Part shown: in pieces, positions 1 to 32,882 of the stretch
Layout: each line of letters opens with the position of its first letter
Position numbering within the stretch: position 1 is the stretch's first letter
Assembly (NCBI GenBank): GCA_016234365.1
Contig: JACRER010000009.1
Span: 1 to 40,275, forward strand
Origin: Elusimicrobiota bacterium
GTDB lineage: Bacteria > Elusimicrobiota > Elusimicrobia > Elusimicrobiales > UBA9959
DNA length: 40,275 nt
Direction: 5' to 3'
The notes under the pieces: model-generated
Database searches by the model: none
Seen by the model: the letters and a program-made list of their open reading frames with translations, nothing else
What the model was told of the DNA's origin: nothing
Program-made: the position numbers and the translations under genes

Positions 1-770
1 CGCACCAAAGAGCCGTTGAGCTCGCGCTCTACGGCTACATCGTAGGTGCCGGAGACCAGCGAACCGGGCACGGTGCCCTTTATCTGCGAGTCCGCCCACA
101 GCGTGAGCGGCGCGGTGGCGCCGCCTATAAGCACACGCGTATAGTTGGCCACGTAGTTGCCAAAGTTGGCGCCCGTAAGCGTGAACCCTACGCCTATGGA
201 ACCCGACGTGGGTATTATGGCGTACAGCTCAGGCGCCACCACCTTAAAGGCCAGGGGCTGGGTAGCCACAGCGCCGCCGTTGAGCTCGCGCTCCACAACC
301 AGTTCATAGTCGCCTGCCGCAAGCGCGCCGGGCACGGTACCCTTTATCTGCGTATCCGTCCACAGCGTAAGCGGGCACGTGGTGCCGCCTATCAGCACCC
401 GGGTGTAGTTAGCCACGTAGTTACCGAAGTTGGCGCCGTTTATGGTGAACGGCACACCTATGGCGCCGGAAGAAGGCAGCACCTCGCCGGCCTGAGCCGC
501 GAGCACCTGGAAGGTGCCTGCATCAGCAAGCGTAGAAGTACCGCGCACCACAGTCACCGCGTGAGCACCGGCTGCCAGCGTGCCCGGCACGGTACCCTTT
601 ATCTGCGTATCGTTCCACAGCGTAAGCGGCGCGGCCACGCCGCCCACCAGCACCTTCGTAGTGGCGGCGGAGTACGTCCCAAAACCAGTACCGGTTATGG
701 TAAACGGCACGCCAATAGGCCCGGAGGACGGGAGTATTTCCGCCGGCGGGACCGCTATGACGGCACCCGC
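1..770 (-). repeat. Tandem TIG/IPT domain repeats, 264-bp period
   Basis: The codons for the motif NFGNYVANYTRVLIGG recur at about 151 and 415, an offset of 264 bases (88 codons). A third, more diverged copy lies near 640-700. The copies are closely similar in DNA, so the 3' part of the giant gene has also grown by tandem duplication, and the series continues past the left edge of the window. Confidence 0.8.
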
Positions 771-3700
771 AATCACCACAATAGCGGTCTTTACAGGGCT
801 CCTATTGTTCTGCACGTCGGCTGCGGCGTAATGCACCGTGTGCGTACCAGCAGCCAGCGTAAACGGAGCGGAATACTGTGTTTCCGAGGACACCAGGTCA
901 GCGTCCACGGAGTAGACCAGCCGCGCCGCGAGACTGTTGCCGCTCAGCATCACGGTGCCGGTGCTGCCTATGGTCACGGTAGCGCCATCCGCCACCACGG
1001 CACCGCCGGCCGAAAGGAACGCCGCCGGAGCCGAAGCGGTGGAAGCGAACACTCCGAAGAGGCAGAGGTGGTCCACCTTCGCATATATGATGTTAGCCTC
1101 CGTGTCCCTGGCGGTAACCGGCAAAGCCGTCCAGACGCCATTCTGCGCGTCGTACCGGTACGGGACGAGCGCCGTTTCCTGCGTGCCATCAGGCAGGGGT
1201 TCGGAGTATTTAAACACCATATCGGCAGCGGGAGAGAACACCGTGCCGTCGGGTCCGGCCTTATAAATATCGCTCACCGGGACCAGTTCCGCATCGCCTG
1301 CCAACGCTATGGCGCCGTCAGTATCATCCGCCGGGGCCTTATCAACGATGACGGTCACCGGGTCGCCGGAAGGAGAGAGGGCCGCTTGTGCCACGAACGT
1401 CAGCACGCCGGCCGCGTCGGAAGCGGTCTGAACCGCGGGATACCCGTCCGGAGTGAACTGCACGGCCAGTTCCGCGGAAGAAGCCGGCGGCATCACACCA
1501 GAATAGTCCGGTGTGAACAAAACGCTTATCTCCGCGGTCGGATGACTTGGCAGCGGCGGCGGAAGCGGAGGCGTCCAACCGTCCGGCACAAATAGTTCTG
1601 CCGAGGTCTGATAACCACCGCCATACCCGCTCGCCACAAGCACGCGTCCGTCGGCCAGCCTTACACCATCGACATTGTCGTGCCCGGACAGCATGTTAAC
1701 AGGGCCGCCAAATACGCCGCCTGCCACGTTGTATATCTCGGCCGTAGAGCTTCCGCCGCCGCCGGCCACCAGCACGTTGCCGCTGTCCAACTTTACCACC
1801 GCACTCTGCAATCTACCTGTGCTCATAGAACCAGTGGCGCTGAACGCGCCGGTAGCCGGATCGTATAACTCAGCCCCGGCGGTGGTACCGCCGACCACCA
1901 GTACCTTACCATTGTTCAGTAACGTGAGCTTTACCCAGTAGCGCGTCTCCGCCATGAAACCAGTTGCGCTGAATACGCCTGTCACCGGGTCGTACAGTTC
2001 AGCGCTGTTGTGGAAAGAACTCATGCTGGCGCTGCCGCCCACTATAAGCGCTTTGCCATTTGGCAGCAGCACGCCGCCGGCCGCCGCCCGGCCGGCCAGC
2101 ATGGACCCGGTAGGACTGAACTGACCACTGGCCGGGTCGTATATCTCGGCGGAAGCCGCTTCAACATTACCGTCCGTGCGCCCGCCGGCCATTAGCACCC
2201 TGCCGTCTGGCAACAGCACCGCGGCAGGACCATACCGCCCCATGCTCATCGAGGCAACGATGGTAAATACGCCGGTCGCCGGGTCATAAACGTTCGCTGA
2301 AGACACATATCCGCTCTCGTTGGCGCCTCCGGCTATCAGCACCTTGCCGTCCGCAAGTTTTACTGCCACATGCCCCTCGCGGCCTTCGCTCATTGAGCCC
2401 GTCTCCGAGAACACCCCGGTGACAGGGTCGTAAAGGTCGGCTCGGGACACGTCGCCCTGCGCGCCGGATTGGCCGCCGGCTATAAGCACCTTGCCATTAT
2501 CAAGCATAGTGGCCGTGTACCCGTAACGCCCCAGCCCTATCGGCCCCGTCGGCACAAATGCCCCGGTCTCAAGGACGGGTGCCGGCACCACCACAGTAAA
2601 CTTACTGGCGGAAGACTGCAATATCCCGCCCGTCACGGCTTTGGCCACGACAAGGTCTTTCTCTCCGGCAGTCAGCCCCGCCGGCACTTTGATCACTATC
2701 TGCGTATCGCTCCAGGAAACGACTTCCGCGGAAACGCTCCCGATGGTCACGGCGCTTACTCCGGCGACCTGTTCACCGAACAAAGTCCCGGTTATGGTGA
2801 CTTGGACACCCGCCTCGCCGCTGGCCGGGGCAATGACATCTACGACCGGCACCGGCAGCGCGGACCCGCCCGGCACGAACAGCTCGGCCGAGGTCTGATA
2901 CCCGCCGCCGTAGCCGCTTGCCACAAGCACGCGCCCGTCAGCCAGCTTTACACCGTCAATATTGTCGTGCGCAGCCAACATGGGAACAGTTTCACCGAAC
3001 ACGCCGCCGGCCACGTTGTATATCTCGGCCGTCGAACTTCCGCCGCCGCCGGCCACCAGCACGTTGCCGCTGTCCAACTTTACCACCGCACTCTGCAATC
3101 TGCCGGTGCTCATACCTCCTGTCCGGCTGAACGTCCCGGTAGCGGGATCGTACAGTTCAGCGCCGGCGGTAGTCCCGCCCAATACCAGAACTTTCCCAGT
3201 ATCCAGAAGCGCCATCTTTACCCAGTAACGCGTCTCCGCCATGAAACCAGTTGCGCTGAATACGCCTGTCACCGGGTCATACAGTTCCGCGCTGTTGTGG
3301 AAAGAATTCATGCTGGCGCTGCCGCCCACTATAAGCGCTTTGCCGTTTGGCAGCAGCACGCCGCCGGCCGCCGCCCGGCCGGCCAGCATGGACCCGGTAT
3401 GGCTGAATTGACCACTGGCCGGGTCGTAGATCTCGGCGGAAGCCGCTTCCACGTTACCGTCCGTGCGCCCGCCTGCAACAAGCACCCTGCCGTCCGGCAG
3501 CAGCACAGCCGCCGCTCCATACCGACCCATACTCATAGAACCAACAACCGTGAACACACTGGTCGCGGGATCGTACACATTGGCCGAAGAGACATAGCCG
3601 CTCTCGTTGGCGCCTCCGGCTATAAGCACCTTGCCGTCCGCAAGTTTTACCGCCACATGCCCCTCGCGGCCTTCGCTCATTGAGCCCGTCTCCGAGAACA

Positions 3701-6700
3701 CTCCAGCGACAGGGTCATAAAGGTCGGCCCGCGCCACGTCACCCTGCGCACCGGACTGCCCACCGGCTATAAGCACCGTGCCGTTATTAAGCATAGTGGC
3801 CGTATACCCGTACCGCCCCAGACCTATCGAACCGGTCGGGATAAAAGAGCCGCCCGTCAACACCGGCGGAGGCTGCACCACCGTGAACAGCACCGGCGCC
3901 GACGACATTGTGCCTGTGCCAGACGCGCTCACTATCAATAACTCCTTAACTCCGGCGGCAAGGCCGGCCGGCACTGTGGCCTTTATTTCAGTATCGCTCC
4001 AGGACACTATCCCGGCTGACACTCCGCCTATGGTCACGGCGCTGACACCACTCACCTGCCCGCCAAAATTACTTCCGCTTATCGTCACCTGCGTGCCGGC
4101 CTCGCCGCTGACCGGATCCACCGCATTCACTACCGGCGCCAGGACCGGGCTGCCGCCAGGCACAAAGAGTTCCGTGCTTGAGTTAAAAGTGGTGCCATAA
4201 CCTCCGGCCACCAGTACGCGCCCGTCGTTCATTCTAACACCGCTTGCCCATTCGCGCCCAAAGAGCATGCTCGGCACAGGCCCGAACTCCCCGGTGGCGG
4301 TATTGTATATCTCCGCCGAAGAATTATTGCCGACACCGCCGGCCACCAGCACATTACCACTGGCCAACTTCACCACAACACCGGTAAGATGCGAAGAGTT
4401 CATGGCGCCAGTCGCGCTGAACGCACCTGTAGCCTGGTCGTATAATTCCGCGCCGGCAGTGGTGCCGCCCACCACCAGCACCTTGCCGCCAGCAAGGAGC
4501 GTCGCTTTAGCCCAATAACGTTCCTCTCCCATCTGACCGGTATAACTGAAGCTGCCGGTCTCCGGGTCGTATATTTCAGCGCTTCTCAGGATAGTGCTGC
4601 CGGCACTCCCACCCATTAACAGCACCTTGCCATCAGGCAGCAGCGCATAGCCAGGAGATGTGCGGGCCTCGTTCATAGACCCTGTAGGGGCGAACAGCCC
4701 CGTAGCCGGATCATAGATCTCGGCCGAAGCCGTATCAATATTTCCGGTAGTGCGCCCTCCCGCCACAAGCACCTTGCCATTTGGCAGCAGCAGCGCGGCA
4801 GGGCCATAGCGCCCTATGCTCATGGACCCGGTCTGGCTGAAAATGCCGGTGGCCGGATCATAAAGCTCTCCATTCTGGTTGTACACCGCCCCACTGGTGA
4901 CGCCTCCCACTATAAGCACCTTGCCGTCAGGTAGCAATACTCCGTTATGACTGTCGCGTGTCTCCAGCATAGACCCGGTGGCCTCGAACGTCCCGGAAGC
5001 CGGGTCGTAGAGTTCCGCGATGTTCACATCGCCGTACAAGGCCCCCGCCTGACCACCGGCTATCAACACCTTGCCGCTGGGCAGCAGTGTGGAACTATAC
5101 GCATACCGCGCCACGGACAAATTGCCCGTCGGCACGAACACGCCTGTCTCCGGCGCGGCCGGTTCCGGCGCGAATACCGCGAACAGCGAATGCACTTCCG
5201 TTATCTGCGCCGTAAGCCTGTGATTTGCGGTATCCAGCGATAAACCTGGCAATTTCGTCCAAACAGCACCGACATGTTCGTATATGGCAAGCTCATTCTC
5301 GGAAATCCCGGCCGGCAGTAAAGCTGGATCGTAAGTGAACGTGATGTTGCTCGGTTGCGGATAAACCATGTTATCCGGCATCACATTGTAAACATGACTT
5401 ATTTTACTCAGGCCCACCGCGTCAGAAAGAGCCGCGGGCACTGCAGCGTCATCCATGTACGTCACGGAAACATTCGCCACAGGCGAATTGACCGACACTT
5501 CCGTGGTGCCGCTATAGGAACCGTAGACCTCGCCCGACACTGAAACGGTCACACTCTTTACCGGCGTCTGATTCCCCGCATTATCGGAAGCGGAGTAATG
5601 AACAGTGTGGGTCCCCACCTCTAGCGTGAACGGCCCGGAATACAACGGATTTTCGCAAGTACCAAGAGGAGCTGTAGAAACAATAGTCTCTATTTCCCCG
5701 CAGGCTTCCGTGGAGGTATCGACAAGGAAGAAAATATTCGCTACTCCGGACGCCTGACCGCCAACCAGCGGGTCATACGCCGTGATGCTTATACTGCCCG
5801 TGGGGGAAGCATAAACAACGTTATACGTAGAGACATTTGTGTCGCCGAGGTATATCCCTGTTTCGGGGGAGGTGACATCAGGCATGTCTTCTAAAATCGC
5901 GAAGTAGGAGTGCAGCTGCGACACTGACGCAGCGTAATAAGCCCCATCCAAACGCTCTAACCGCTCTTTTGGCAATTTTATCAGAGTACTGAGGTCGGAG
6001 TTGAATTCGTAGATATCAAAAGCGCCGATATCCTGCCTATCCGTCTTCAGGTAAAGGGTCCCCGAAGGAGAGAAAGATGCCCCATCGGGACTGATGTAAG
6101 ACAACTCAGACTGCAGCGCCTTGCCTTTTTCTGCGAGACTGGCTTGGAGTTGTGAGTATTCCTGGGTGTCAGGTCCAACACCACGTGCGCTCACCTCAGG
6201 ATTTGCCGACTCAAAAACGAGCTTGTCGGATGACGCTTCATACCTGGCGTCATATGTAGGGGCTGTTACAATGAACGTCCCGAGACTGTCAGAGAATGCC
6301 GTAGCGACGGAGCCATACTTGCTGGTCATCAAATCTTTTGGGCCAAGCGGCTGCGCCCGGTAGAGCATGGCGCTGACGTTCAGTTTTTGATCCTCCGTAA
6401 GGCCTGCAGGGTTATACGGCACCGTCAGCCACGCGGAACCCGTGAAACTCAGCCCCTCGGAAGCCTCCAGCCGCATGGCGCCGGAGCCCAGCAGATTGGT
6501 CCTATAAGAAGGCGTTTGAACGGAAGTCAGGGTCAAACCCAAACACCCCTCGGTAGTGACCCCATCCAGACTAACGGTCAGTCCAGGTTGAAACACATAC
6601 TTGCCATCCAGCCTGCCCTCGGCACAAATATGGTTCCAATAGCCGAGCATTTCGCGGCTGGTGCTGCTTAGTTCGATCGTGGAAGACTCAGGGTTGTTTA

Positions 6701-7664
6701 GAGCCCAAAATTCATAGTTAATATAGTTCCCCGCAGAATCCCAGCCGCGCAGCACATAATCTCCAACCCCGGGAAGATTGAACGGGTATATATACTCGCC
6801 GGGAGTCAAAGCGGCCTCCGACACAAGCTGCGGCGGCTGTTCAGGGTCCACTATTTTATCGAGATAAAGTTTTTTCAACCCAAACGTGGAATTCGTGTAT
6901 GAAGTCAACACCCCGGAAGCTGAAAGGTCAATATGTATGGTAAATATTCCCGATTCAAAAGCCACGAAAGTGGTTTTTCCTCTTTTGTCTTTCGCGGTTA
7001 TCTCATAATGGGCTGGGCTTTCTCTTAAACCTCCGAACACGTATACATATGCCTCTCCGGCCGCCCTGGCCCCGGAATCTTCTTCGTTTATAAACACAGT
7101 GCCGTTCGCATCGGTTTTGGTAATTACAACGCTCTCCAAACCAGACTCAGGGTCCAAAATCGTCAGCGGCAGGATCTCATCTACGGTTTTAATTACAGCC
7201 GGGCTAATACCAGTCCAGCCGGAATAGATACTCCCCAGACTCAACCCGGGCGCCGGATTCCCAATAATAAAATCCACCAAAGTTTCTTTGCTGCGGGGCC
7301 AACTATTCGGATTGTTTGCTGCAATTTGATAAATTATTTTTCCGGTCGCGCCAGAAACCGCATTCGGCAGTGCAGAAAACGATATTCTAAAATCCAGAGT
7401 TCCGCCAGGTTGAACTGCTACAGGGGGCATCGGGGTCACGGTGGGAGAGGTCAAGAGGGTGCCCGGATAATTGGGGAACTGAAGGCTATCAACATTTAAG
7501 GCACTGGAGCTATCAGTGTCATTAGAAACTCTTGCAACTATCGTAACGGACTCCGCACCGACAAACACGGGAGTGTCCTGGGCCGCTACGGTCGAGACAA
7601 CAATATTCTGCGCGGCTGTCGCCGCGCAGAATGAAAGCCAAAATCTAACGGTATTCTTGGTCAT
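1..7664 (-). CDS. Giant secreted Kelch/TIG repeat protein (C-terminus outside window)
   Basis: One uninterrupted reading frame of at least 2,554 codons runs off the left edge; I checked the frame at several points down to base 3. It starts at ATG 7664, overlapping the end of the upstream HEAT gene by 20 bases. Residues 1 to about 32 look like a signal peptide. An N-terminal Ig-like region follows, with ZU5-like segments near residues 527-592 and 760-832 and an OmpL47-type Ig domain near 668-698. Three seven-bladed Kelch propellers (blade motif roughly DGKVLxAGG) lie at about 839-1166, 1270-1597 and 1699-2026; the first two are each followed by a TIG/IPT domain. After a proline-rich linker come another ZU5-like segment (about 2136-2206), an OmpL47-like domain and at least three TIG domains of 88-aa period. 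Such architecture is usual in surface or secreted adhesion and recognition proteins, but the ligand and the secretion route cannot be seen. Confidence 0.9.
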   Translation of the reverse strand, partial: MTKNTVRFWLSFCAATAAQNIVVSTVAAQDTPVFVGAESVTIVARVSNDTDSSSALNVDSLQFPNYPGTLLTSPTVTPMPPVAVQPGGTLDFRISFSALPNAVSGATGKIIYQIAANNPNSWPRSKETLVDFIIGNPAPGLSLGSIYSGWTGISPAVIKTVDEILPLTILDPESGLESVVITKTDANGTVFINEEDSGARAAGEAYVYVFGGLRESPAHYEITAKDKRGKTTFVAFESGIFTIHIDLSASGVLTSYTNSTFGLKKLYLDKIVDPEQPPQLVSEAALTPGEYIYPFNLPGVGDYVLRGWDSAGNYINYEFWALNNPESSTIELSSTSREMLGYWNHICAEGRLDGKYVFQPGLTVSLDGVTTEGCLGLTLTSVQTPSYRTNLLGSGAMRLEASEGLSFTGSAWLTVPYNPAGLTEDQKLNVSAMLYRAQPLGPKDLMTSKYGSVATAFSDSLGTFIVTAPTYDARYEASSDKLVFESANPEVSARGVGPDTQEYSQLQASLAEKGKALQSELSYISPDGASFSPSGTLYLKTDRQDIGAFDIYEFNSDLSTLIKLPKERLERLDGAYYAASVSQLHSYFAILEDMPDVTSPETGIYLGDTNVSTYNVVYASPTGSISITAYDPLVGGQASGVANIFFLVDTSTEACGEIETIVSTAPLGTCENPLYSGPFTLEVGTHTVHYSASDNAGNQTPVKSVTVSVSGEVYGSYSGTTEVSVNSPVANVSVTYMDDAAVPAALSDAVGLSKISHVYNVMPDNMVYPQPSNITFTYDPALLPAGISENELAIYEHVGAVWTKLPGLSLDTANHRLTAQITEVHSLFAVFAPEPAAPETGVFVPTGNLSVARYAYSSTLLPSGKVLIAGGQAGALYGDVNIAELYDPASGTFEATGSMLETRDSHNGVLLPDGKVLIVGGVTSGAVYNQNGELYDPATGIFSQTGSMSIGRYGPAALLLPNGKVLVAGGRTTGNIDTASAEIYDPATGLFAPTGSMNEARTSPGYALLPDGKVLLMGGSAGSTILRSAEIYDPETGSFSYTGQMGEERYWAKATLLAGGKVLVVGGTTAGAELYDQATGAFSATGAMNSSHLTGVVVKLASGNVLVAGGVGNNSSAEIYNTATGEFGPVPSMLFGREWASGVRMNDGRVLVAGGYGTTFNSSTELFVPGGSPVLAPVVNAVDPVSGEAGTQVTISGSNFGGQVSGVSAVTIGGVSAGIVSWSDTEIKATVPAGLAAGVKELLIVSASGTGTMSSAPVLFTVVQPPPVLTGGSFIPTGSIGLGRYGYTATMLNNGTVLIAGGQSGAQGDVARADLYDPVAGVFSETGSMSEGREGHVAVKLADGKVLIAGGANESGYVSSANVYDPATSVFTVVGSMSMGRYGAAAVLLPDGRVLVAGGRTDGNVEAASAEIYDPASGQFSHTGSMLAGRAAAGGVLLPNGKALIVGGSASMNSFHNSAELYDPVTGVFSATGFMAETRYWVKMALLDTGKVLVLGGTTAGAELYDPATGTFSRTGGMSTGRLQSAVVKLDSGNVLVAGGGGSSTAEIYNVAGGVFGETVPMLAAHDNIDGVKLADGRVLVASGYGGGYQTSAELFVPGGSALPVPVVDVIAPASGEAGVQVTITGTLFGEQVAGVSAVTIGSVSAEVVSWSDTQIVIKVPAGLTAGEKDLVVAKAVTGGILQSSASKFTVVVPAPVLETGAFVPTGPIGLGRYGYTATMLDNGKVLIAGGQSGAQGDVSRADLYDPVTGVFSETGSMSEGREGHVAVKLADGKVLIAGGANESGYVSSANVYDPATGVFTIVASMSMGRYGPAAVLLPDGRVLMAGGRTDGNVEAASAEIYDPASGQFSPTGSMLAGRAAAGGVLLPNGKALIVGGSASMSSFHNSAELYDPVTGVFSATGFMAETRYWVKLTLLNNGKVLVVGGTTAGAELYDPATGAFSATGSMSTGRLQSAVVKLDSGNVLVAGGGGSSTAEIYNVAGGVFGGPVNMLSGHDNVDGVRLADGRVLVASGYGGGYQTSAELFVPDGWTPPLPPPLPSHPTAEISVLFTPDYSGVMPPASSAELAVQFTPDGYPAVQTASDAAGVLTFVAQAALSPSGDPVTVIVDKAPADDTDGAIALAGDAELVPVSDIYKAGPDGTVFSPAADMVFKYSEPLPDGTQETALVPYRYDAQNGVWTALPVTARDTEANIIYAKVDHLCLFGVFASTASAPAAFLSAGGAVVADGATVTIGSTGTVMLSGNSLAARLVYSVDADLVSSETQYSAPFTLAAGTHTVHYAAADVQNNRSPVKTAIVVIAGAVIAVPPAEILPSSGPIGVPFTITGTGFGTYSAATTKVLVGGVAAPLTLWNDTQIKGTVPGTLAAGAHAVTVVRGTSTLADAGTFQVLAAQAGEVLPSSGAIGVPFTINGANFGNYVANYTRVLIGGTTCPLTLWTDTQIKGTVPGALAAGDYELVVERELNGGAVATQPLAFKVVAPELYAIIPTSGSIGVGFTLTGANFGNYVANYTRVLIGGATAPLTLWADSQIKGTVPGSLVSGTYDVAVERELNGSLV
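1590..5150 (-). repeat. Three tandem Kelch-propeller modules, 1,287-bp period
   Basis: Equivalent positions recur at exactly 1,287 bases (429 codons): the same codons lie at 1731, 3018 and 4305. Each unit codes for seven Kelch blades plus, in the two upstream units, a TIG domain. The two downstream propellers (about 1590-2570 and 2880-3857) are near-identical in DNA over long stretches, for example 1956-2160 against 3243-3447. The third (4165-5150) matches mainly at protein level. This points to an older duplication and then a recent one, or to gene conversion between the last two units. Confidence 0.9.
7270..7475 (-). repeat. Long inverted repeat, left arm (inside giant gene)
   Basis: This 206-bp stretch of the giant gene (codons 64 to about 132) is present again on the opposite strand at 9978-10183, with 204 of 206 bases matching and no gaps. 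The two differences change Leu to Arg and Glu to Lys. Similarity stops abruptly at both ends. The two arms face each other across 2,502 bp. Confidence 0.95.
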
Positions 7665-8883
7665 CTTTATGTTGCTCCCACCACGCTTTTCGTTGCGCAA
7701 TAACCGAATCTAAATCATCTCGTGCGCTATCCCCCAGCACAACTCCCGTTATTCTTCTAATAGCCACTTCCGCATTTTCGCGCACCTTACGATCTGAATC
7801 TTCTAAATAACCCGTAATTAATTTTATATCCTTCGTCGTTCCAACCTCCCAAAATCCCCGCAACATCGACTGCCTGAGGACGGGATCATCCGAAGAAGCA
7901 TACTTAAGAAGTCGTTCTCGTAGCCCAGAAGGCAGTTCTTTTCTTAAAAGACAAAATTGCAGGGCATCTATCCTATGCAAGGAAAGAATTTTTGCATCCT
8001 CCATAATCTCAAATAAACGCTCTATTATCGCAGGCGTACGTACGAATTCCCTTGTTGCCAGCGACTCTATGGCCGCGCCAACTATTTGAGGGTTTTCATT
8101 ATAAAGAATTTTTATCAACTCGTTAGTTACGTCCGGTCGCTTAACATATCCCAGACCATTAATAGCGATTACCTTATCCGTAATATTAAACTCGGCAGCA
8201 GAAGTAGATCGAACAATTTTCAACAATACTTGGCCGCCTTTAGGATTTCCTAACCGCGCCAGTGCGGTATCCGCCTTAAGAACTTGAAGCGTATTAGTCG
8301 ATGCCAGTGCTTCTTCCAACGTCTTAGCACCGGAGGAATCCTGCACCCATGTCAACTGTTCAGCTGCTTCAAACCTGATATCAACATCCTTGGAGTTCAG
8401 GAGTTGTTTCACACGTGTCTTGGCGCGCTCATCACCAATATTTGCCAGCATCCACCATATAGCCTGCTTGCTCACCTTATGATTTTTAGTGGCAAGTCTA
8501 TCCTCAAACACTTTCCGAATACGCGCAATACGCGCAACCCCCAATTCTTTTTGGATCAAAAACACCCTGAATTCAGTTGGATGGTTCCTATAGTAGTCTC
8601 GCTGCGCAATAGTAAGCCCGGAATCCGTAGAAGAACTCTTGAGCAATATGTCAAACGTATTAGCCATGCTTTTTCCTGCAATAAGATTAGCCAGGGCTCC
8701 AGATTCCAACTGTGGCATACCATCGGCGTTTTGCCTTTCAAGCACGGCAATTGATTCATCGATACGTTGCTTGTCTGTATCGCTAAAGGTTCCATTAACT
8801 GCCCACACCGGAGAGAGCGCCATAGGCAACAAACAGGAAACGTAGAAAGATTTGCATATCAAACGAGAAAAGCTTGTCGTCAT
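7645..8883 (-). CDS. Secreted HEAT-repeat protein
   Basis: This 412-aa protein starts at ATG 8883, one base after the stop of the upstream gene. GGAGG eight bases ahead supports this start over the longer frame from 8922. Residues 1 to about 29 form a signal peptide (basic start, hydrophobic core, cleavage near AVNG). From about residue 130 onward, paired amphipathic helices recur with the pattern of HEAT/PBS-lyase-type repeats (for example ALARLGNPKG, AIESLATREF and AEVAIRRITG). HEAT repeats form curved helical scaffolds for protein binding; no catalytic motif is visible. The gene overlaps the start of the giant Kelch gene by 20 bp and is very probably translated with it, so it may act as a partner or chaperone of that protein (inference). 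Its base composition is more AT-rich than the pilus genes. Confidence 0.88.
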   Translation of the reverse strand: MTTSFSRLICKSFYVSCLLPMALSPVWAVNGTFSDTDKQRIDESIAVLERQNADGMPQLESGALANLIAGKSMANTFDILLKSSSTDSGLTIAQRDYYRNHPTEFRVFLIQKELGVARIARIRKVFEDRLATKNHKVSKQAIWWMLANIGDERAKTRVKQLLNSKDVDIRFEAAEQLTWVQDSSGAKTLEEALASTNTLQVLKADTALARLGNPKGGQVLLKIVRSTSAAEFNITDKVIAINGLGYVKRPDVTNELIKILYNENPQIVGAAIESLATREFVRTPAIIERLFEIMEDAKILSLHRIDALQFCLLRKELPSGLRERLLKYASSDDPVLRQSMLRGFWEVGTTKDIKLITGYLEDSDRKVRENAEVAIRRITGVVLGDSARDDLDSVIAQRKAWWEQHKDDQEYR

Positions 8884-8884
8884 T

Positions 8885-9916
8885 TTAGTTGCCTCCAAAA
8901 TACCATTCAACAGTAACATCAATCTTGTTCGGGTTTGTCAACCAACCGATTCCGCCGTAATTGTTACTCAAATACCAATTTGCACTCACTTTCGTTTTAA
9001 ACCCTGCACTTCTAAGACTAGCGTCAGCCTGAAACTCATTCAAGTGCGTGGTAATAGGCTCATCGAATGTAAAAGATAACGGACTTAGCTGCACAAACTC
9101 TCCTATTTTGTATTTAATCCCAGTCTCACCATTAGTGTTAACATATACACCGCCGATAGTCGCTCCCATGATAATACTTGTCTGGTAAGAAGGAGAGGGT
9201 TTACGTGAAATCCTGGTATTCCAGTAAGCCACAGGAATGGCATCAATCTTTACCTGCTGATTCGATCCCACTACCTCTCCAAGCATATTACAGAAACCCT
9301 GAGAAGTATACTTCGTGGCATCACGAAATGCGTTTAAAGTCTCTTCGGAAATCACTTCGGGGGGAACAGCACTTTCAGCAGCAGTTTTGACCTGGGAGCG
9401 AAAATAATCTCCAATCAGATTATTAGCTGTTTGGGGGAGCACATTTACTTCTGCATCAATTTTATCCTTCATACGCTGAAAAAGACTCCCAAAATATTCC
9501 GTCAGCTTACCTTGACCCTGAATGATCGAATTACCTTCAGTTTTAGCCTCAGAACCATCAGGCAAAAATGCCCTGACCCATATTTCACTTGGAGCAACCG
9601 GCTCGTCACTAGGAGATGTTTTATCAACGATGGTTATGATTCTATCTTGTCCCACGACAGAATCGACTGAGACCTCCATCCTAGTGTCCCCTGGCGAAAG
9701 CTGAAAAACTATTGGCTGGTCTGCCGGGGTCACTCGCACATGAATCTGCTTAGTTTCGCCCGGGTTTATTTCAAATACTGAGGGATCAAGAAATACGACA
9801 TAGACATTGCGTTTGTCCTCAAGGATAAGTTCCAGGGAACTTAAAACCGCGGCTGCTCCCAATATGATAGACAACACTGCGAGAGCCACGACAGGAATCT
9901 TCAAGTATTTATGCAT
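8885..9916 (-). CDS. Membrane-anchored protein of unknown function
   Basis: I do not recognise this 343-aa protein. The start at ATG 9916 has GGGAG six bases upstream. Residues 7-29 form one hydrophobic segment, an N-terminal anchor or an uncleaved signal. Residues 40-125 read as a beta-rich, Ig-like domain (spaced prolines, FEINPGETKQI). A helical middle with several charged stretches spans about 130-215. The C-terminal third is again beta-rich, with alternating polar and aromatic residues and a terminal VTVEWYFGGN that resembles a barrel-type strand. It is the first gene of the three-gene cassette with the HEAT protein and the giant Kelch protein, and shares their lower GC content. A surface or periplasmic role is likely, but nothing more specific can be said. 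Confidence 0.8.
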   Translation of the reverse strand: MHKYLKIPVVALAVLSIILGAAAVLSSLELILEDKRNVYVVFLDPSVFEINPGETKQIHVRVTPADQPIVFQLSPGDTRMEVSVDSVVGQDRIITIVDKTSPSDEPVAPSEIWVRAFLPDGSEAKTEGNSIIQGQGKLTEYFGSLFQRMKDKIDAEVNVLPQTANNLIGDYFRSQVKTAAESAVPPEVISEETLNAFRDATKYTSQGFCNMLGEVVGSNQQVKIDAIPVAYWNTRISRKPSPSYQTSIIMGATIGGVYVNTNGETGIKYKIGEFVQLSPLSFTFDEPITTHLNEFQADASLRSAGFKTKVSANWYLSNNYGGIGWLTNPNKIDVTVEWYFGGN

Positions 9917-9977
9917 TTAGCGCTCCCACTTTAACTAATCCACATGCAAGCAAAATTCAAAACATTGACACTCTTCA

Positions 9978-10183
9978 CCCAATTATCCGGGCACCCTCTT
10001 GACCTCTCCCACCGTGACCCCGATGCCCCCTGTAGCAGTTCAACCTGGCGGAACTCGGGATTTTAGAATATCGTTTTCTGCACTGCCGAATGCGGTTTCT
10101 GGCGCGACCGGAAAAATAATTTATCAAATTGCAGCAAACAATCCGAATAGTTGGCCCCGCAGCAAAAAAACTTTGGTGGATTT
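9978..10183 (+). repeat. Long inverted repeat, right arm
   Basis: This arm matches the reverse strand of 7270-7475 at 204 of 206 positions without gaps. It lies 61 bp upstream of the start of the 343-aa membrane protein gene, so it flanks the cassette on the side opposite the giant gene. Confidence 0.95.
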
Positions 10184-10205
10184 CACTATCGATATTTCGT
10201 TGTAA
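9978..10205 (+). pseudogene. Displaced fragment of the giant Kelch gene's 5' region
   Basis: Read on the plus strand, this stretch keeps the giant protein's reading frame for 69 codons. It then diverges and ends seven codons later (FTIDISL, stop TAA at 10203-10205). A TGA stop lies in frame just upstream and there is no ATG or GTG start, only an unlikely internal TTG at 9999, so as it stands it cannot make the secreted protein. If the segment between the inverted repeats flipped, this fragment would be joined in frame to the giant gene's start and signal peptide, giving a secreted protein of about 138 aa. It could equally be the relic of a paralogous gene. Confidence 0.75.
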
Positions 10206-10317
10206 AAGCATTACCATTCCACGCTAGCCCGCGCAATCAACCCGCAAAAGTATACAACAAGCTTCGAGGTTTGTCAGTAACGCTAGCGTTACTTTCGCGC
10301 TAGCAGGGGAAATGAGC
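10206..10317. other. Intergenic stretch with a 16-bp perfect palindrome and repeated CGCTAGC
   Basis: The sequence GTAACGCTAGCGTTAC at 10277-10292 is a perfect palindrome. The heptamer CGCTAGC occurs three times here, at 10222, 10281 and 10298. The stretch separates the AT-rich cassette from the GC-rich signalling genes. It could be a protein-binding site or the scar of an insertion boundary; no coding potential is seen. Confidence 0.5.
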
Positions 10318-10370: not shown

Positions 10371-11069
10371 CTATTCGGCTGAGTCTTCGGGGCCCTGGTA
10401 GGCCCAGCCGCGGCCGCGGGCGCATTTAATGCGCTCGCCCACCACGGCGCCCAGGTTCTTGCGCAGGCGGTAGGCCAGCATTTTTATGGCGTCGGTCTTG
10501 TCGGTGGCCGGATCTTCGTCAAAAACATAGCTGGTTATGTCCGCCTCCGTAACAAATTCCGGCGCCTTGGTCATAATCAGGGAGAACATCTTGAACTGGT
10601 CCGCGGAAAGCTCCGCTATGGGCTGCGAATCCTTTATGACGCGCAGGCGCACGCCGTCCAGGCGGATGTCGCCGCGTGAAAGGTTGCCCCGCTCCATGTC
10701 CACCCGGAGCAGGAGCAACTCCAGTTGGCCTTTCAGGCGTTCCAGGGGCCACATTTTAAAGTAAAAACCATCCACCTGGCAATGCTGGTACGCTTCAAAC
10801 TCCTTCGACTCGTCGTTGGAAGCCATTATTATGGGGGTTTTGCGCACTTTTACGTCCTTGCGGATGGCAAAGGCGGCTTTGCAACCGTCCATATCAGGCA
10901 GATTGAAGTCCAAAAGCACGCAATCGGGGCAGGCCTCCCGCGCAGCTTTAACACCGGCGGCGCAGGTGTCCGCGAATATGACTTTGTATCCCAATTCCTG
11001 CAGGCACCGGGCAATAACGCCGGACCAGACCCTGTCGTCGTCTATAAGAAGCAGCGTGCGCTGATGCAT
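10371..11069 (-). CDS. Response regulator, receiver plus winged helix (OmpR/PhoB type)
   Basis: This 232-aa protein starts at ATG 11069, seven bases after AAGGGG; a TTG two codons earlier is less likely. The receiver (about 1-120) has the acidic cluster IDDD at 9-12 and the phospho-accepting Asp54 within LLDFNLPDMDG. The conserved lysine is present in FYFKMW, although the usual following proline is replaced. Residues about 135-225 form an OmpR-type winged helix ending in the typical RGRGWAY wing. It would be phosphorylated by a sensor kinase and bind DNA; no kinase gene is directly adjacent, so its partner is unknown. It stands apart from the neighbouring genes, with its own leader of about 120 bp. 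Confidence 0.9.
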   Translation of the reverse strand: MHQRTLLLIDDDRVWSGVIARCLQELGYKVIFADTCAAGVKAAREACPDCVLLDFNLPDMDGCKAAFAIRKDVKVRKTPIIMASNDESKEFEAYQHCQVDGFYFKMWPLERLKGQLELLLLRVDMERGNLSRGDIRLDGVRLRVIKDSQPIAELSADQFKMFSLIMTKAPEFVTEADITSYVFDEDPATDKTDAIKMLAYRLRKNLGAVVGERIKCARGRGWAYQGPEDSAE

Positions 11070-11192
11070 TTCCAAACCCCTTGTGAGAAACTACACCCAA
11101 ATTCTAGCAATTAGACCGCAGGGGCAGGGGACGCTGATGACCAAATGACTAACTTCGGGTCCTTGGCCAGCGCCCTTTCCCTATCTTTATTT

Positions 11193-17613: not shown

Positions 17614-17680
17614 AAATGGCCGCTCACGCGGGCATGCCCCGCGCTCTCTTATTTATACTTTATTTATATGTTGCAAACAA

Positions 17681-17708
17681 GGGGACGCTCTTAACTATTG
17701 GACTATTT
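17681..17708 (+). repeat. Left inverted end of RAYT element
   Basis: This copy matches the reverse complement of 18812-18839 at 27 of 28 bases and contains the stop codon (TAG on the minus strand, 17695-17697) of the transposase gene. Confidence 0.85.
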
Positions 17709-18675
17709 GCAGTTCCCTGGCTAACACCCGGCCTTTCAGCGCCAGTTTCGAGACGGCGCTTTGCGTCAACCCCAACTCCGATGCCAGTTCGACCACGGAG
17801 CAGCCAGCCATTTCTTTGGAAAGGTGGCAATAAAGAGCTCGGGCGCTCGCGGGACCGCGTTCACGGGTTCGCCTCAATATGTCCCGCCTGTCGATCCCTG
17901 TGGTATTTTCGACTTTGGCAAGCACTTCCGCGCGACTTTCCCTCTCCCTGTTCATGGCGGCATCGGCCGATCTCAGAACGCACTCCACAAAACCGCTCTT
18001 CTCCGGCACGCACTGAACGGGAAAAACCTCCAACCCGGCCCTGAACGCAGGCAGTGCAGCCCCCCCACCTTCGCAGCCGAGCCGCCCACAACCGCCGGCC
18101 AGGTCATTTCTTCCGATTTCCGCGGCTTTTTCCTCCATTTTCTTTTTATATCCCGCCATACCGGCACGTTCATCGCCGCCAAAATGCACCAACAAGGCGC
18201 GCCTATCCAGCAAACCGTCGGCGGCGCCGGTCACAATGGAACGATGCCCGCACCACTTATACCCGGCAAGGCCTTCCAGATCCGGCACCAGGCCGGCCCG
18301 CAACGGGTTCAGGTGAATATACGGCGCCGCCTCGAGAAGGTAGTTTTCCAGACCGCAGAGTATGGCTTTATATCTGTTTTGGAACAGATGCCCGACGCGG
18401 CTGTATTTCAGGTTAAAATTAACCGCATAGCCGGTAAGGGCCCGATGCATGAGCTCGGACAGGGTCCGTTCGCCCCTGAGTATGAGGAAATGAAAGTGAT
18501 TAGGCATGAGGCACCACGCCAGGCATCTGGCGCCCGTCTTGCCGGACCCCTCGGAAATACGCGCCAGAAAATCGCGGTAGTCCCCATCGTCGAGAAATAT
18601 CTCGCGCCGCTCTATGCCGCGCGACATCACATGGTAAACCTGCCCCGGAACATCCATCCTCGCCTGTCTCGGCAT
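17695..18675 (-). CDS. REP-associated tyrosine transposase (Y1/HUH family)
   Basis: This 326-aa protein starts at ATG 18675 (MPRQARMD), preceded by a G-rich run. MPRxAR near the N-terminus and the HUH motif His60-Phe-His62 in LMPNHFHFLI define the Y1 transposase fold of the RAYT group. Tyr119 in the motif YIHLNPLRAG is the likely catalytic tyrosine that cuts single-stranded DNA. Beyond the roughly 150-aa catalytic domain is a C-terminal extension ending in a helix-turn-helix of DnaA-C-terminal style (VVELASELGLTQSAVSKLAL). All key residues are present, so the enzyme could be active. The reading frame ends within the left inverted end. Confidence 0.92.
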   Translation of the reverse strand: MPRQARMDVPGQVYHVMSRGIERREIFLDDGDYRDFLARISEGSGKTGARCLAWCLMPNHFHFLILRGERTLSELMHRALTGYAVNFNLKYSRVGHLFQNRYKAILCGLENYLLEAAPYIHLNPLRAGLVPDLEGLAGYKWCGHRSIVTGAADGLLDRRALLVHFGGDERAGMAGYKKKMEEKAAEIGRNDLAGGCGRLGCEGGGAALPAFRAGLEVFPVQCVPEKSGFVECVLRSADAAMNRERESRAEVLAKVENTTGIDRRDILRRTRERGPASARALYCHLSKEMAGCSVVELASELGLTQSAVSKLALKGRVLARELQIVQ

Positions 18676-18780
18676 ATGCCCCCCTTTACCCACAGGGATA
18701 GCATAGCAGGCGAACCCGACACCGTATTGTCGCGTTGATATTAGTGTTTTGACCTGTTGTGGAAGAACGTCTGAAAAGCA

Positions 18781-18804
18781 AAAAGCCGGCGTTCGCCGGC
18801 TTTT
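18781..18804. repeat. REP-like palindrome near the right end of the RAYT element
   Basis: An 11-bp perfect stem (AAAAGCCGGCG with CGCCGGCTTTT) has a two-base loop and lies 7 bp inside the right inverted end. Such hairpins are the recognition structures of RAYT enzymes. Because it ends in TTTT on both strands, it could also terminate the kinase transcript. Confidence 0.7.
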
Positions 18805-18811
18805 CACCCCA

Positions 18812-18839
18812 AAATAGTCCAATAGTTAAGAACGTCCCC
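18812..18839 (-). repeat. Right inverted end of RAYT element
   Basis: This is the partner of 17681-17708, matching at 27 of 28 bases. It contains the last codons and the TAA stop (18826-18828) of the upstream histidine kinase gene. Confidence 0.85.
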
Positions 18840-20724
18840 CTGGCGCGGGGGGCGGGTTCTGCAGGATAGGGATGAAGAGCTTGAAGCAGGTGCCTTTTCC
18901 CACCACGCTGGTCACTTCCACGCGGCCCTTGTGGCGGTCCGCCACCTTCTTCACCACGGCCAGGCCCAGGCCGGTGCCGCGGGCCTTGGTGGTAAAGAAC
19001 GGCGCGAAGATCTTTTCGGCGGTTTCCTTGGGCATGCCGCAGCCCGTGTCCTCCACGTCTATGCGCACCATGTTCCCCTCCGCCACCTCGCTGCGCACGT
19101 AGAGCTTGCCGTGTTCGGGCATTACTTCTATGCCGTTCTTTATGAGGTTGCGCACGGCCTGCGCCATTTCGTCGGGGTCTATGCTCACCGCCGGGTTCTC
19201 CGGCGCGAAATTCTTTATCATTTCCACGTGCGCGGGCACCGGGAAGCTCATGGTAAGGTCTTCCAGGTACGCGTTGATGTGCATGACCTTGGGGTTAAGC
19301 TCGCGCGTGCGGGCGTACCCCAGGATCTCGTCTATGATGCCGTTGGCCTGCCGGATCTCGGACTCGATGATGGAGATATGCTTAAGCACCTTCGGCTCCG
19401 GGTTGGGCTGCGCGTTGGTCTTGGTCTTGATGAAATAGATGGAGTTATTGATGACGGCCAGGGGGTTGCGGATCTCGTGGCCTACTACGGAGGACATCTG
19501 CCCGATGGCGGCCAGCCGCTCTTTCTTGATCAGCTCGTCCTGCGCGCTCTTAAGTTCGCGGGTGCGGGCTTCCACGCGGTTCTCGAGGCTGCGGTTCAGG
19601 CGTTCCAGTTCGGTCTTGGCCGACATGATCTCGACGGTCTTGACCTTCAGGGATTCGCTCATCTGCATGAACGTGTGCGCCAGCTCGCCTATTTCGTCGT
19701 TGGGCATGCTGAGGTCGGGCAGGTAGTCGAAGTCGCCCTCGCCCAGCTTTATGGCCGCCTCGCGCAGCGCCTGGATGGGCTGAGTGATGACCAGCGATAC
19801 CGCGTAACCCAGGAACAGCACGAAAACCGTCACTATCATCATCATGCGCCAGGTGCGCTTGAGCATGTCGTCGGAGGCCTGGTAGGCCACGGAGACCGAG
19901 CGCTGGATGTACACCACCCAGCCCAGCTCCGTCACTTCGGCGAAGGCCGAGAGCACGCGCTCCCCGGTGGATTCCAGGATCATCTCGCCGCTGCCGGTCT
20001 TGGCGTCGTTCTGCAGCAGGATCTTCAGCACGTCGTCGGGCAGTTTGGCGTCGGGCTTGTAAATTTCCTTGGAATTGGAGTGCGCTATCAAAAAACCGCT
20101 GGAATCTATCACCGCGGCCTGCGTGTGCGTGGTCTCCGGGAAGCCGGTCTTGAGCAGGCTCGACAGGGCGGTCAGGCTCATCTTGGCCAGCACCGCGCCC
20201 ACGGGCTGGTTGGTGACGGGGTTGACTATCTGCACGCCCATGGTGACGGCCGGGTAGGAGCCCATGTACTTCTCCAGCCCGCCGATAAATTCGCCGGCCC
20301 GCATAACCTTCATGAACAGCGCGTCGTTGGCCATGTCGCGCATCCTGGTCTCATGCACAAAACGGCCCAGGCGCACCGTTTCCTGGCCGTCGGCGTTAAT
20401 GACCGAGATCTCCAGGAAGGCCGCGTGCAACTGCATGATGTGGCTGACCAGCCCCTGCTGCTTGGGCGTGTTCATGGAGGCGAAGTCCTCCAAGTGCGCG
20501 GCGTCGAACAGCACGTTGCGGAAATTGATGATGTAGCTGGAGACGGTGTCGGCGAAGCCTACGGCCAGCGCCTCCTGGTCGCGGGAAATGGCGCGGTTAA
20601 GGGTGATCTGGCTGAGGTTGACGAGGTAGTAGCCTACTATGCCCAGGGGCACCAGCGAAACGATGAGGAATATGAGCAGGAATTTGTAGAACAGCCTGCC
20701 GCGTTTCTTGGGAGCTTCTGTCAT
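18826..20724 (-). CDS. Membrane sensor histidine kinase (Cache-HAMP-HisKA-HATPase)
   Basis: This 632-aa protein has membrane segments at about 12-35 and 292-314 enclosing a periplasmic domain of about 255 residues that reads as a dCache-type sensor (for example AAFLEISVINADGQE and QAAVIDSSGFLIAHS). A HAMP domain (about 315-370) and a coiled coil (370-405) follow. HisKA has the phospho-accepting His416 in VGHEIRNPLA. The HATPase domain has N box NLIKNGIEV, G1 box DTGCGMP and G2 box GTGLGLAVV. The final residues GGRS and the stop codon come from the end of the RAYT element, so the native C-terminus has been altered, but only past the catalytic domain. No strong ribosome site is seen at ATG 20724. 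The likely partner regulators are the CheY-like, hybrid and NarL-type proteins nearby. Confidence 0.93.
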   Translation of the reverse strand: MTEAPKKRGRLFYKFLLIFLIVSLVPLGIVGYYLVNLSQITLNRAISRDQEALAVGFADTVSSYIINFRNVLFDAAHLEDFASMNTPKQQGLVSHIMQLHAAFLEISVINADGQETVRLGRFVHETRMRDMANDALFMKVMRAGEFIGGLEKYMGSYPAVTMGVQIVNPVTNQPVGAVLAKMSLTALSSLLKTGFPETTHTQAAVIDSSGFLIAHSNSKEIYKPDAKLPDDVLKILLQNDAKTGSGEMILESTGERVLSAFAEVTELGWVVYIQRSVSVAYQASDDMLKRTWRMMMIVTVFVLFLGYAVSLVITQPIQALREAAIKLGEGDFDYLPDLSMPNDEIGELAHTFMQMSESLKVKTVEIMSAKTELERLNRSLENRVEARTRELKSAQDELIKKERLAAIGQMSSVVGHEIRNPLAVINNSIYFIKTKTNAQPNPEPKVLKHISIIESEIRQANGIIDEILGYARTRELNPKVMHINAYLEDLTMSFPVPAHVEMIKNFAPENPAVSIDPDEMAQAVRNLIKNGIEVMPEHGKLYVRSEVAEGNMVRIDVEDTGCGMPKETAEKIFAPFFTTKARGTGLGLAVVKKVADRHKGRVEVTSVVGKGTCFKLFIPILQNPPPAPGGRS

Positions 20725-25298: not shown

Positions 25299-26609
25299 TT
25301 ATTGGCCGCCGGAGAGGATCTGCTCTATGCGCTTAAGGCCGGCCGCCGTGTCCGCGTTGGCCGGATCCAGCTGCTTGGCAATGGTCCACTCGTCGCGGGC
25401 CTTCTCGTAGTTGGAGTTCTGGAAATATTTCAGGCCTTCGAGGTAGTGCTGCTGGGACGCCAGCCTGTTCTCCTCGCTTATGCCGGCGGGCTTCTTGATC
25501 TCCTCCACCGTCGTGCCTTTGCGCTTCGCCTCTTCCTCGTCCTTCTTGCGCTGGGCCTCTTCCTTCAGGCGCGCATCCTCTTCGGCCTTGGCGCGGCGTT
25601 CCGCCTCGGCGGCGCGGCGCTTTTTCTCGTCGGACTCGGACTTCATCTGCTCGCGGGCGCGGGAAATGAGCTTGTTGATGTAGGACATGTTGGCCGTGTA
25701 AGGCTTGGCTTTGTCCCACTCGCCTATGGCGTCCGTATACCGGCGGGCGCCGTAAAACTTTTTACCGGAGGCCAGGTAGCCGTTCTCTATCTCCAGCTTC
25801 ACCTCGCCCATCAGCTTGCCGGCCTTCGGATCGCCGGGCTGGATCTCCAGGGCGCGCTGCAGGCCCTCGTAGGCGTCCTTAAGGCGGCCCTGCGCGTAGA
25901 ACTCCAGGGCCTCCTTGAGCTTGTCGTTGGCCCGCTGCTGGCGCAGTTCGTCCTCCACGCGGGTTATCCACTCCACCGTGGGGGAATCCTTGGGCCTTAT
26001 CAGCAGCGCGTTATAGAAATTATCCAGCGCTTCCTTGAGGTCCCTGTCCTTGTAGGCGTCCTTGCCCTTCTGCGTGTAGTAATCCTTCAGGTCGTCCTTC
26101 ATCTTGGCCAGCCAGTACTTGGCCTTGATATTATTCGGGGAAAGCTTCACCACCTCGTCCATCTTCTTATGGGCCTCCACAATGCGGCCCTCGTTATAAT
26201 AGGAAAGGGCCGTTTTGAAGCGGTCCTCTATCATGATCTTCTCGCTCATGTTGGGGCGCAGGCTGCCGCGCAGCTGGTTGGAGGCCTCCAGCAGCATCTG
26301 GGCGTCCTGGTAACCCGGGTCTATCGCGAGGATCTTGGTGGCCAGGTCCTTGGCGTCCTCGTAGTTGCCCTGGCGGTAATACTCGAAGGCGTTCTCGTAG
26401 ACGTTGTCGAGCATCTTCCCCTGGATCTTCTGCTTCTCCAGCTTCACGGTCTCCAGGAACTTCTTCTTTTCCTCGAACTCGGTCAGGGACCCGAGGCCCG
26501 TTTTCTGCAGGTCGAGGAAGAGCGACTCTTCGCTCTTTACGCCCGCGCGCTGCTGCGCCGGGCAGGGCAGCGCCTGCGCCAGAACAAGGAGGAAGATAAA
26601 GTTTCTCAT
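25299..26609 (-). CDS. Secreted TPR-repeat protein of the pilus locus (TadD-like position)
   Basis: This 436-aa protein has AGAGG five bases before ATG 26609. A signal peptide (1-18, ending CPAQ) is followed by several tetratricopeptide repeats (for example AFEYYRQGNYEDAKDLATKI, ALSYYNEGRIVEAHKKMDEV and ALEFYAQGRLKDAYEGLQRA). A strongly charged Lys/Glu/Ala coiled-coil segment near 315-370 comes next, and then a final TPR (YFQNSNYEKARDEWTIAKQL). TPR proteins such as TadD in Tad loci help place or stabilise the outer-membrane secretin; this one lies last in the pilus gene row, 10 bp after tadC. Because the secretin here is unusually short, this protein may take over part of its periplasmic scaffolding (inference). 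Confidence 0.88.
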   Translation of the reverse strand: MRNFIFLLVLAQALPCPAQQRAGVKSEESLFLDLQKTGLGSLTEFEEKKKFLETVKLEKQKIQGKMLDNVYENAFEYYRQGNYEDAKDLATKILAIDPGYQDAQMLLEASNQLRGSLRPNMSEKIMIEDRFKTALSYYNEGRIVEAHKKMDEVVKLSPNNIKAKYWLAKMKDDLKDYYTQKGKDAYKDRDLKEALDNFYNALLIRPKDSPTVEWITRVEDELRQQRANDKLKEALEFYAQGRLKDAYEGLQRALEIQPGDPKAGKLMGEVKLEIENGYLASGKKFYGARRYTDAIGEWDKAKPYTANMSYINKLISRAREQMKSESDEKKRRAAEAERRAKAEEDARLKEEAQRKKDEEEAKRKGTTVEEIKKPAGISEENRLASQQHYLEGLKYFQNSNYEKARDEWTIAKQLDPANADTAAGLKRIEQILSGGQ

Positions 26610-26619
26610 AAAAGCCTCT

Positions 26620-27522
26620 TTAGAACGGCATCGCGCCGCCGGTCACCAGGTCCATGATCATGGGGGCCAGCATCAGTATGAACACCGTCGGGAAAATGAA
26701 TATGAAAAGCGGGATGAGCATCTTGGTGGAGGCCTGCGCGGCCAGCTTCTCGGCGCGGTTCAGGCGCCTAAAGCGCATGTCGGCGGAATAGTTGCGCAAC
26801 AGGTCCACGAGGCTGGTGCCCAGTTCGTCGGACTGGATAATAAGCCCCACGAAGGAGCGCACTTCCTGCAGGCCGGTGCGCTGGGAGAGGTGGCGCAGCG
26901 CGTCGCGCCGCGAGTAGCCCATCTGCACCTCGTTGATGGTGCGCTCTATCTCCAGTTCCAGACCGGTCTTCACGGGGGCTATCTTCACTATACGGTCGAA
27001 AGCGGTCATGTAGTCCAGGCCGGACTCTATCATCAGCGCGCCCAGGTCCACGAACGTCGGGAAATTGCGGATTATGTCCTCCTGCCGGTTGCGGATCCGG
27101 CCGGAATACATCAGGCCGTCCGGCAGCATAAAGCCGATGGGCGCGAAGACCAGCGTGAACGGGGACTGGGTCAGCGCGTAGGCGGCCACGGGGATGCCCG
27201 CGCCGAAGATGAGCTTCAAATGCAGCATCTTCAGCGGGTCGGTGCTGGCGGGGCGCCCGAGCAGCATGTAAGTCTCTTCCAGTTTCTTCTCCATGCCCAG
27301 CTGCTTGGCGAAGAAGAGGTCCAGCTTGTCCCAGAAGCTCTTGCTGCCTTCGAGTTTGGCGAAGACGGAGGTTTCCTTTCCCTCCATGTCGCTGATGTCG
27401 CTGATCGGGGAACGCTCCTCCGAGGGCGGCGCGAAGAAGCGCTGGACGAACGTGAAACAGGCGAACGAGCCCGCCACGGACAGGACCAGCAACAGTATGC
27501 CGCGTATAGTTTCCGGGTTCAT
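26620..27522 (-). CDS. tadC: TadC-like inner-membrane pilus assembly protein
   Basis: This 300-aa protein starts at ATG 27522, overlapping the tadB stop by 4 bp (ATGA), as is usual for the tadB-tadC pair. A membrane segment lies at about 7-25, a pair near 110-145, and a final one at about 270-292. The cytoplasmic T2SSF domain (about 150-265) contains FPTFVDLGALMIESGLDYMTAF and the typical LRNYSADMRFRRLNRAEKLA stretch. TadB and TadC form the inner-membrane platform that the TadA ATPase drives to extrude Flp pilins. Confidence 0.92.
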   Translation of the reverse strand: MNPETIRGILLLVLSVAGSFACFTFVQRFFAPPSEERSPISDISDMEGKETSVFAKLEGSKSFWDKLDLFFAKQLGMEKKLEETYMLLGRPASTDPLKMLHLKLIFGAGIPVAAYALTQSPFTLVFAPIGFMLPDGLMYSGRIRNRQEDIIRNFPTFVDLGALMIESGLDYMTAFDRIVKIAPVKTGLELEIERTINEVQMGYSRRDALRHLSQRTGLQEVRSFVGLIIQSDELGTSLVDLLRNYSADMRFRRLNRAEKLAAQASTKMLIPLFIFIFPTVFILMLAPMIMDLVTGGAMPF

Positions 27523-29078: not shown

Positions 29079-29106
29079 ATCCGGGGCCTGGCGCCCGCCC
29101 GGCGGC

Positions 29107-31323: not shown

Positions 31324-31349
31324 AAGGTCTACCGCCGTTGCGCCGTGCC

Positions 31350-32069
31350 TTACTTTATGATGTCGAAAGTCACGAACAGGAACAGAGAACTCTGCTCCTC
31401 CACCACGTCGGTGGAGCCGAACAGCGCGCCTATCAGAGGCAGGCTGCCCAGTATGGGCACGCGGTTCTTGGAAACGTTGCGGTTGCTGCGCTTCAGGCCG
31501 CCTATCACCAGCGTCTCGCCGCTCTTCAGCTCCACTTCGGTCTGGATCTGGCGGGTGATCATGGACGGGATGGTGGTGCCGGAGGCTATGACCGGCTTGG
31601 AATAGTCCGGGTTGGAGACCTCCAGCTGGATCTGCACGTCCACGGTGTCCTTCTTTTCGGCCAGGATGACCGGCAGGACGTTGAGGATGACGCCGAACTT
31701 CTTAAACTCGGCGCCCACGCCCTGGTTATTGGAGTACGGCACCGGGATCTCGCCGCCCACGGTGAAGTTGGCCTGCGTGCCGCTCTTGGTGATGACCTTG
31801 GGGTTGCTGAGCAGCTGGGCCTTGCCTTCCGTTTCGAGCAGCTTCAGGGAAGCCGCCAGCTGCGTCTTGCGCTCAAAGTCGCCCAGCGTGATGATGCCGG
31901 GGACGGTCTTCTCCGAGAAATCGAAGAACTGGTTCCAGGAGAACCCGCGCGTTTTCTGGATGGAGCCGCTTATCTCCACGATGTCGGCGCTGACCGCCAC
32001 CATCTTGGCGTCCTCGGCGAAGGCCGCGGCAGGCAGCAGCATCGTCAGGGCGAGGAATATCTTTTTCAT
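31350..32069 (-). CDS. Short secretin (RcpA/CpaC-like, secretin domain only)
   Basis: This 239-aa protein has AGGAT six bases before ATG 32069 and a signal peptide (1-18, ending AAAFAE). Nearly all the remainder is a secretin C-domain: AQLLSNPKVITKSGTQANF, VGGEIPVPYS, GVILNVLPVI, LKSGETLVIGGL and the final VPILGSLPLIGALFGS signature. CpaC/RcpA secretins are usually above 400 residues, with N0/N1 or BON domains ahead of the pore. Here those periplasmic domains are reduced to some 60 residues. Because the start is well defined and the CpaB gene ends 10 bp upstream, truncation by frameshift is unlikely. It should form the outer-membrane pore for the pilus. Confidence 0.92.
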   Translation of the reverse strand: MKKIFLALTMLLPAAAFAEDAKMVAVSADIVEISGSIQKTRGFSWNQFFDFSEKTVPGIITLGDFERKTQLAASLKLLETEGKAQLLSNPKVITKSGTQANFTVGGEIPVPYSNNQGVGAEFKKFGVILNVLPVILAEKKDTVDVQIQLEVSNPDYSKPVIASGTTIPSMITRQIQTEVELKSGETLVIGGLKRSNRNVSKNRVPILGSLPLIGALFGSTDVVEEQSSLFLFVTFDIIK

Positions 32070-32079
32070 AGTAGTATCC

Positions 32080-32835: not shown

Positions 32836-32882
32836 AATATCTCTCCCGTTGATCCGTCAGCTTGCGTTACGGCTAAATCTGT

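Follow-up and report, generated by a model that had tools for sequence, protein, structure and literature searches.

The locus considered here raises the question of whether a long inverted repeat, one arm of which lies within the coding sequence of a giant surface-type gene, constitutes an invertible switch or the trace of a past duplication. The initial annotation of the window—by which we mean the whole stretch of 40,275 nt that was analysed—had proposed an on/off or swap switch for a surface protein, while also naming a simple duplication. We favour the latter: with a probability of roughly 0.58, the repeat is the scar of a recent inverted duplication in the leader of an operon whose promoter lies outside the arms, with rare inversion being possible; whereas an evolved phase-variation switch, in which the arms would recombine (RecA-dependently or not), flipping the segment and turning the surface operon on or off, appears to us rather unlikely. 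The features on which the argument depends are the following.

3–7664, minus strand: giant Kelch/TIG surface-type gene, with its ATG at 7664 and its 3' end lost at the contig end
7270–7475, minus strand: left arm, codons 64–132 of the giant gene, a 204/206 inverted match
7476–9977, no strand: segment between the arms, of 44.5% GC versus about 60% around it
7645–8883, minus strand: HEAT-repeat protein, its 3' end overlapping the start of the giant gene
8885–9916, minus strand: 343-aa protein of no known family, with a signal- or anchor-like N-terminus
9978–10183, plus strand: right arm, inverted copy of the left arm, placed after the putative promoter and ahead of the operon's first gene
10249–10277, minus strand: putative leftward promoter of the operon, CTGACA-17-TATACT, the sole such site in the window
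10276–10293, no strand: perfect 18-bp palindrome AGTAACGCTAGCGTTACT, a probable operator, adjoining the sigma-70-type promoter
10371–11090, minus strand: OmpR-type response regulator upstream of the operon (Pfam Response_reg and Trans_reg_C), with an ATG or TTG start near 11075–11090

The inverted repeat is real. We reproduced both the coordinates and the identity that had been claimed for it: the arms, of 206 nt each, are identical at 204 of 206 positions in opposite orientation and have sharp ends, and if those ends are set more loosely the inverted match extends to 212 nt at 98%. The mismatches, at positions 7286 and 7396, leave exact tracts of 16, 109, and 79 bp. Since base-shuffled windows gave longest perfect inverted words of only 14–20 bp, the repeat is not a product of chance. 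Its sequence is present in only two copies in the 2.72-Mb genome; no inverted repeat longer than 33 bp was found in 282 kb sampled from the same genome, which sample serves as our baseline for it, nor was any further one of at least 50 bp (at a spacing of up to 15 kb) found in 595 kb consisting mostly of congener loci.

An artefact of assembly or amplification might be suspected, the genome being a draft of 100 contigs and amplification chimeras often being short-range inversions. That origin is nevertheless very unlikely in view of the two internal positions at which the copies disagree; and against it stand also the longest exact tract, which at 109 bp could be spanned by ordinary read pairs, and the quality of the genome, of 96.5% completeness and 0.46% contamination.

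The two arms are not equivalent. One copy is located inside an intact long frame, while the other is a fragment without a gene of its own, which asymmetry supports a duplication. As the initial annotation had recognized in assigning both arms the same codon phase, the right arm is free of stops in the frame of the giant gene; it then terminates as ...KKTLVDFTIDISL-stop, the stop codon being at 10203–10205, so that only 19 nt separate the arm from that stop and no gene exists on that side in that frame. Both differences between the arms change an amino acid (L to R and E to K), as would be expected of an unconstrained copy and hence in favour of duplication, two differences being too few for a test of constraint. 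Beyond the arm ends there is weak similarity on the outer side (10/21, empirical p 0.02) and none on the inner side. The stretch just past the right arm, at 10184–10206, reads VDFTIDISL-stop and resembles the VDFAIDTT found at a domain end in the giant protein of one congener (G005).

The position of the promoter decides what an inversion could accomplish. On the minus strand the order is response regulator, right arm, 343-aa protein, HEAT protein, and giant Kelch gene; and the operon promoter is most probably the site at 10249–10293, to the right of the right arm and outside the segment that would invert. We place it outside the repeats because its geometry is common to loci with a homologous response-regulator gene. 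For that comparison we took all the homologues of the regulator from 32 genomes of the genus, selected by homology of the regulator and not by promoter: 20 of the 23 loci combined a -35 of TTGAC type with a TATACT-like -10 at a 17-bp spacing and with an operator, palindromic to a greater or lesser degree, whose centre lies 6–10 bp before the -35, and at 19 of these 20 the site attained p ≤ 0.05 against shuffles in which base composition only was preserved. The site in the window scored 11/12 for the promoter and 8/8 for the palindrome, and none of 200 shuffles equalled it. The composite of operator and promoter is found at a single place in the window and at two places in the 282-kb sample of the genome (the C59 locus and one weak match), and the palindrome core recurs together with the promoter at G000:C59:73391 and at G003:C119, in both instances directly behind a response-regulator gene and ahead of genes for secreted or giant proteins. 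The window contains the response-regulator gene, an operator 6–10 bp before the -35, the 17-bp spacer, and an operon on the same strand.

With the promoter at 10249–10293, the right arm would therefore lie in the 5' leader of the operon, and a transcript of the assembled form would begin near 10242 and cross that arm before entering the three genes. Between the -10 and the first ORF there are 332 nt, more than at any other of the 18 loci compared (the others ranging from 8 to 283), or 126 nt when the arm is discounted, which difference we count in favour of a duplication into the leader.

The same layout—an OmpR-type regulator, a palindromic or quasi-palindromic operator, a sigma-70-type promoter with a 17-bp spacing, and an operon—recurs in the genus (10249–10293 with 10371–11090 here; elsewhere L098, L187, and L212–L230). 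The operons behind it often hold secreted or giant proteins, those of L215, L216, and L218 being chemotaxis-like in a by-eye reading, and the operator half-sites differ among loci (TAACG, TCACG, ACACC). Such recurrence opens the regulation of these surface proteins to testing.

If the segment were to flip, the promoter would read antisense through it and all three genes would be cut from their promoter, the whole operon being silenced because the likely promoter is outside the repeats. The initial annotation had placed the promoter-proximal genes, start codon, and signal peptide of the giant gene between the arms: the genes, the start, and a signal-like N-terminus are indeed located there, but the likely promoter (10249–10293) is not. 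The prediction that inversion would detach the giant gene from its start is borne out to the extent that, with both the start and the signal-like N-terminus inside the segment, a flip would split the gene; after that event the giant body would reopen only at a TTG, GTG, or ATG inside the arm, without a signal peptide. Our computation of the inverted molecule likewise agrees with the in-frame fusion of 138 aa carrying the giant's own N-terminus. A secreted product of that length had been anticipated; the ORF would exist, but after the flip it would have no recognized promoter. A swap, for its part, is unsupported because the right side offers 19 nt before a stop and no alternative gene body, and we rejected a swap switch for lack of a partner gene body on that side. 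The outcome of an inversion would accordingly be an off state, with three genes off the promoter and the giant deprived of its start and signal peptide.

In the course of events that we propose, 206 bp from the interior of the giant gene would recently have been copied, inverted, into the 5' leader of the operon to which the gene belongs, probably through a template switch during replication or repair. The operon of the 343-aa protein, the HEAT protein, and the giant would be transcribed leftward from the response-regulator-linked promoter at 10249–10293, so that the assembled orientation, in which operon and promoter are joined, would be the "on" state; and the length and proximity of the repeats would permit an occasional inversion by homologous or recombinase-independent recombination. 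What the data show is the repeat with its reading frame, the fact that it is unique in the genome, and a promoter geometry common to these loci; we infer that the promoter drives the operon, that the repeat arose by duplication, and that inversions are infrequent and not under selection. It counts against a scar that the arms are so placed that a flip would amount to on/off, and that inversion switches are frequent among surface-type proteins, to which the giant belongs.

The arms are long, close, and 99% identical, and these properties would suit an evolved switch, for which several known systems offer precedents. At the sap locus of Campylobacter fetus, long homologous arms lie at the 5' ends of surface-protein genes, as they do here, and the promoter between those arms flips between genes. 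By contrast, the likely promoter in the present locus is outside the arms, and there is no alternative gene. (The sap surface-layer inversions are mentioned in PMC5634654 and PMC11852207.) The pneumococcal spnIII locus, whose hsdS repeats of 85 and 333 bp are inverted and within coding sequence as in the present instance, inverts at frequencies of several per cent and above, independently of RecA and of any known site-specific recombinase, repeats of 85–333 bp thus providing a precedent (PMC6620402); there, though, silent partial genes supply alternative sequence, whereas here the partner ends after 19 nt (PMC6620402). In the Ureaplasma UU172/mba loci one repeat occupies the 5' part of the surface gene and the other the neighbouring spacer (PMC3047005), which placement is that found here; but in Ureaplasma the short repeats measure tens of nt, the inversion alternates between two genes, and each of the two forms has been observed (PMC3047005), whereas our locus has no second gene and is known from one assembled orientation. 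The invertons of gut bacteria detected with PhaseFinder resemble it in having inverted repeats near surface-related genes, and differ in that here no recombinase is present on the contig and the arms are a long gene fragment (PMC11892184).

Of what characterizes long-repeat inversion of surface-protein genes (of the sap, spnIII, and UU172 type), the locus possesses the long, near-identical arms in the 5' part of the gene (206 bp, 204 identical), but not an alternative gene body. As regards site-specific invertons, the start of the giant gene is inside the segment with the likely promoter outside (10249–10293), and an adjacent recombinase is missing: the initial annotation had reported none beside the repeat, and we extend that statement to the whole contig (C87), where no match to the resolvase or integrase families was found, each family having three matches elsewhere in the genome. 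Against an evolved switch we count, in addition to the missing partner gene and recombinase, the single orientation in the assembly, the two differences that have escaped homogenization between the arms, and the absence of the arrangement from every congener examined. A simple inverted duplication is thus the more economical reading. In the literature searched we found no comparable switch in the Elusimicrobiota; if the segment does invert, it would represent an on/off switch that controls a giant surface protein of that phylum without a recombinase, and even as a scar a partial, inverted gene copy in the gene's own leader shows where such switches could start.

Comparison with related genomes, which had been suggested for this locus, favoured the scar in one respect, in that the repeat was absent from 20 syntenic congener loci and from all the other loci with a homologous regulator that we examined; it could not, in the other respect, provide the empty site, which is not visible in those 20 loci because synteny with the congeners stops at the gene for the M41 protease (whose closest match among named species genomes, at 52% identity, is from Candidatus Endomicrobium, in line with a probable Elusimicrobiota lineage). 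Searches of 294 other genomes of the phylum yielded no relative of either the 343-aa or the HEAT protein, and the 343-aa protein has no match in the species-genome or viral collections either. Because those proteins lack relatives and congener synteny ends at the M41 gene, the ancestral arrangement cannot be reconstructed.

The solitary character of these genes and the low GC of the block (44.5% versus about 60% around it) might suggest that the AT-rich genes arrived on a mobile element or as a cargo block, of which the 206-bp arms would be the terminal inverted repeats. We consider that origin extremely improbable: between the arms there is no transposase, but only the genes for the 343-aa and HEAT proteins together with the start of the giant; the flanks, ...CCCAATAATA on the left and CACTATCGAT... 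on the right, contain no target-site duplication; a second copy is absent from the genome; and the left arm sits within a single continuous frame, with weak homology to other giants beginning within that arm, around residue 120. We found no plasmid matches to the DNA segment. Transposon terminal inverted repeats were accordingly rejected, for want of a transposase, a target duplication, or further copies.

The location of the right arm between the putative promoter and the first gene would have a further consequence, in that the transcript would carry both arms. The right arm could then act as an antisense leader pairing with codons 64–132 of the giant within the same mRNA, thereby lowering the translation or stability of the giant while the upstream genes were still made. 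The predicted duplex attains -423 kcal/mol versus -58 and -46 when each arm folds by itself, but that capacity is a property of any inverted copy at such a place; the pairing would have to occur at a distance of 2.5 kb and across translated genes, and a search against Rfam gave no match, so that control at the RNA level is very improbable. Somewhat less so, though still quite unlikely, is a combined form, a self-targeting leader, in which the inverted piece of the operon's own last gene would serve both as a 206-nt antisense within the mRNA and as a recombinase-free arm flipping the operon off the response-regulator promoter.

Other parts of the window yielded observations of their own. Within the giant gene, blocks of 300 nt lying 1.3 kb apart at 1560–3146 are 83% identical, with stretches of 100% identity, which suggests that Kelch units were recently duplicated within the gene or underwent gene conversion. 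A 31-bp inverted repeat of 94% identity (17678–17708 and 18812–18842) flanks a gene for a Y1 (IS200-like) transposase at 17695–18822 with a DnaA-type C-terminal domain, and this is the arrangement expected of a REP-associated transposase. Finally, a Tad/Flp pilus cluster (TadE, RcpC, a secretin, and two T2SSF) occupies 25299–33380, and its T2SSE ATPase gene, at 29107–31323, is fused to a CbiA/ParA-type ATPase domain.
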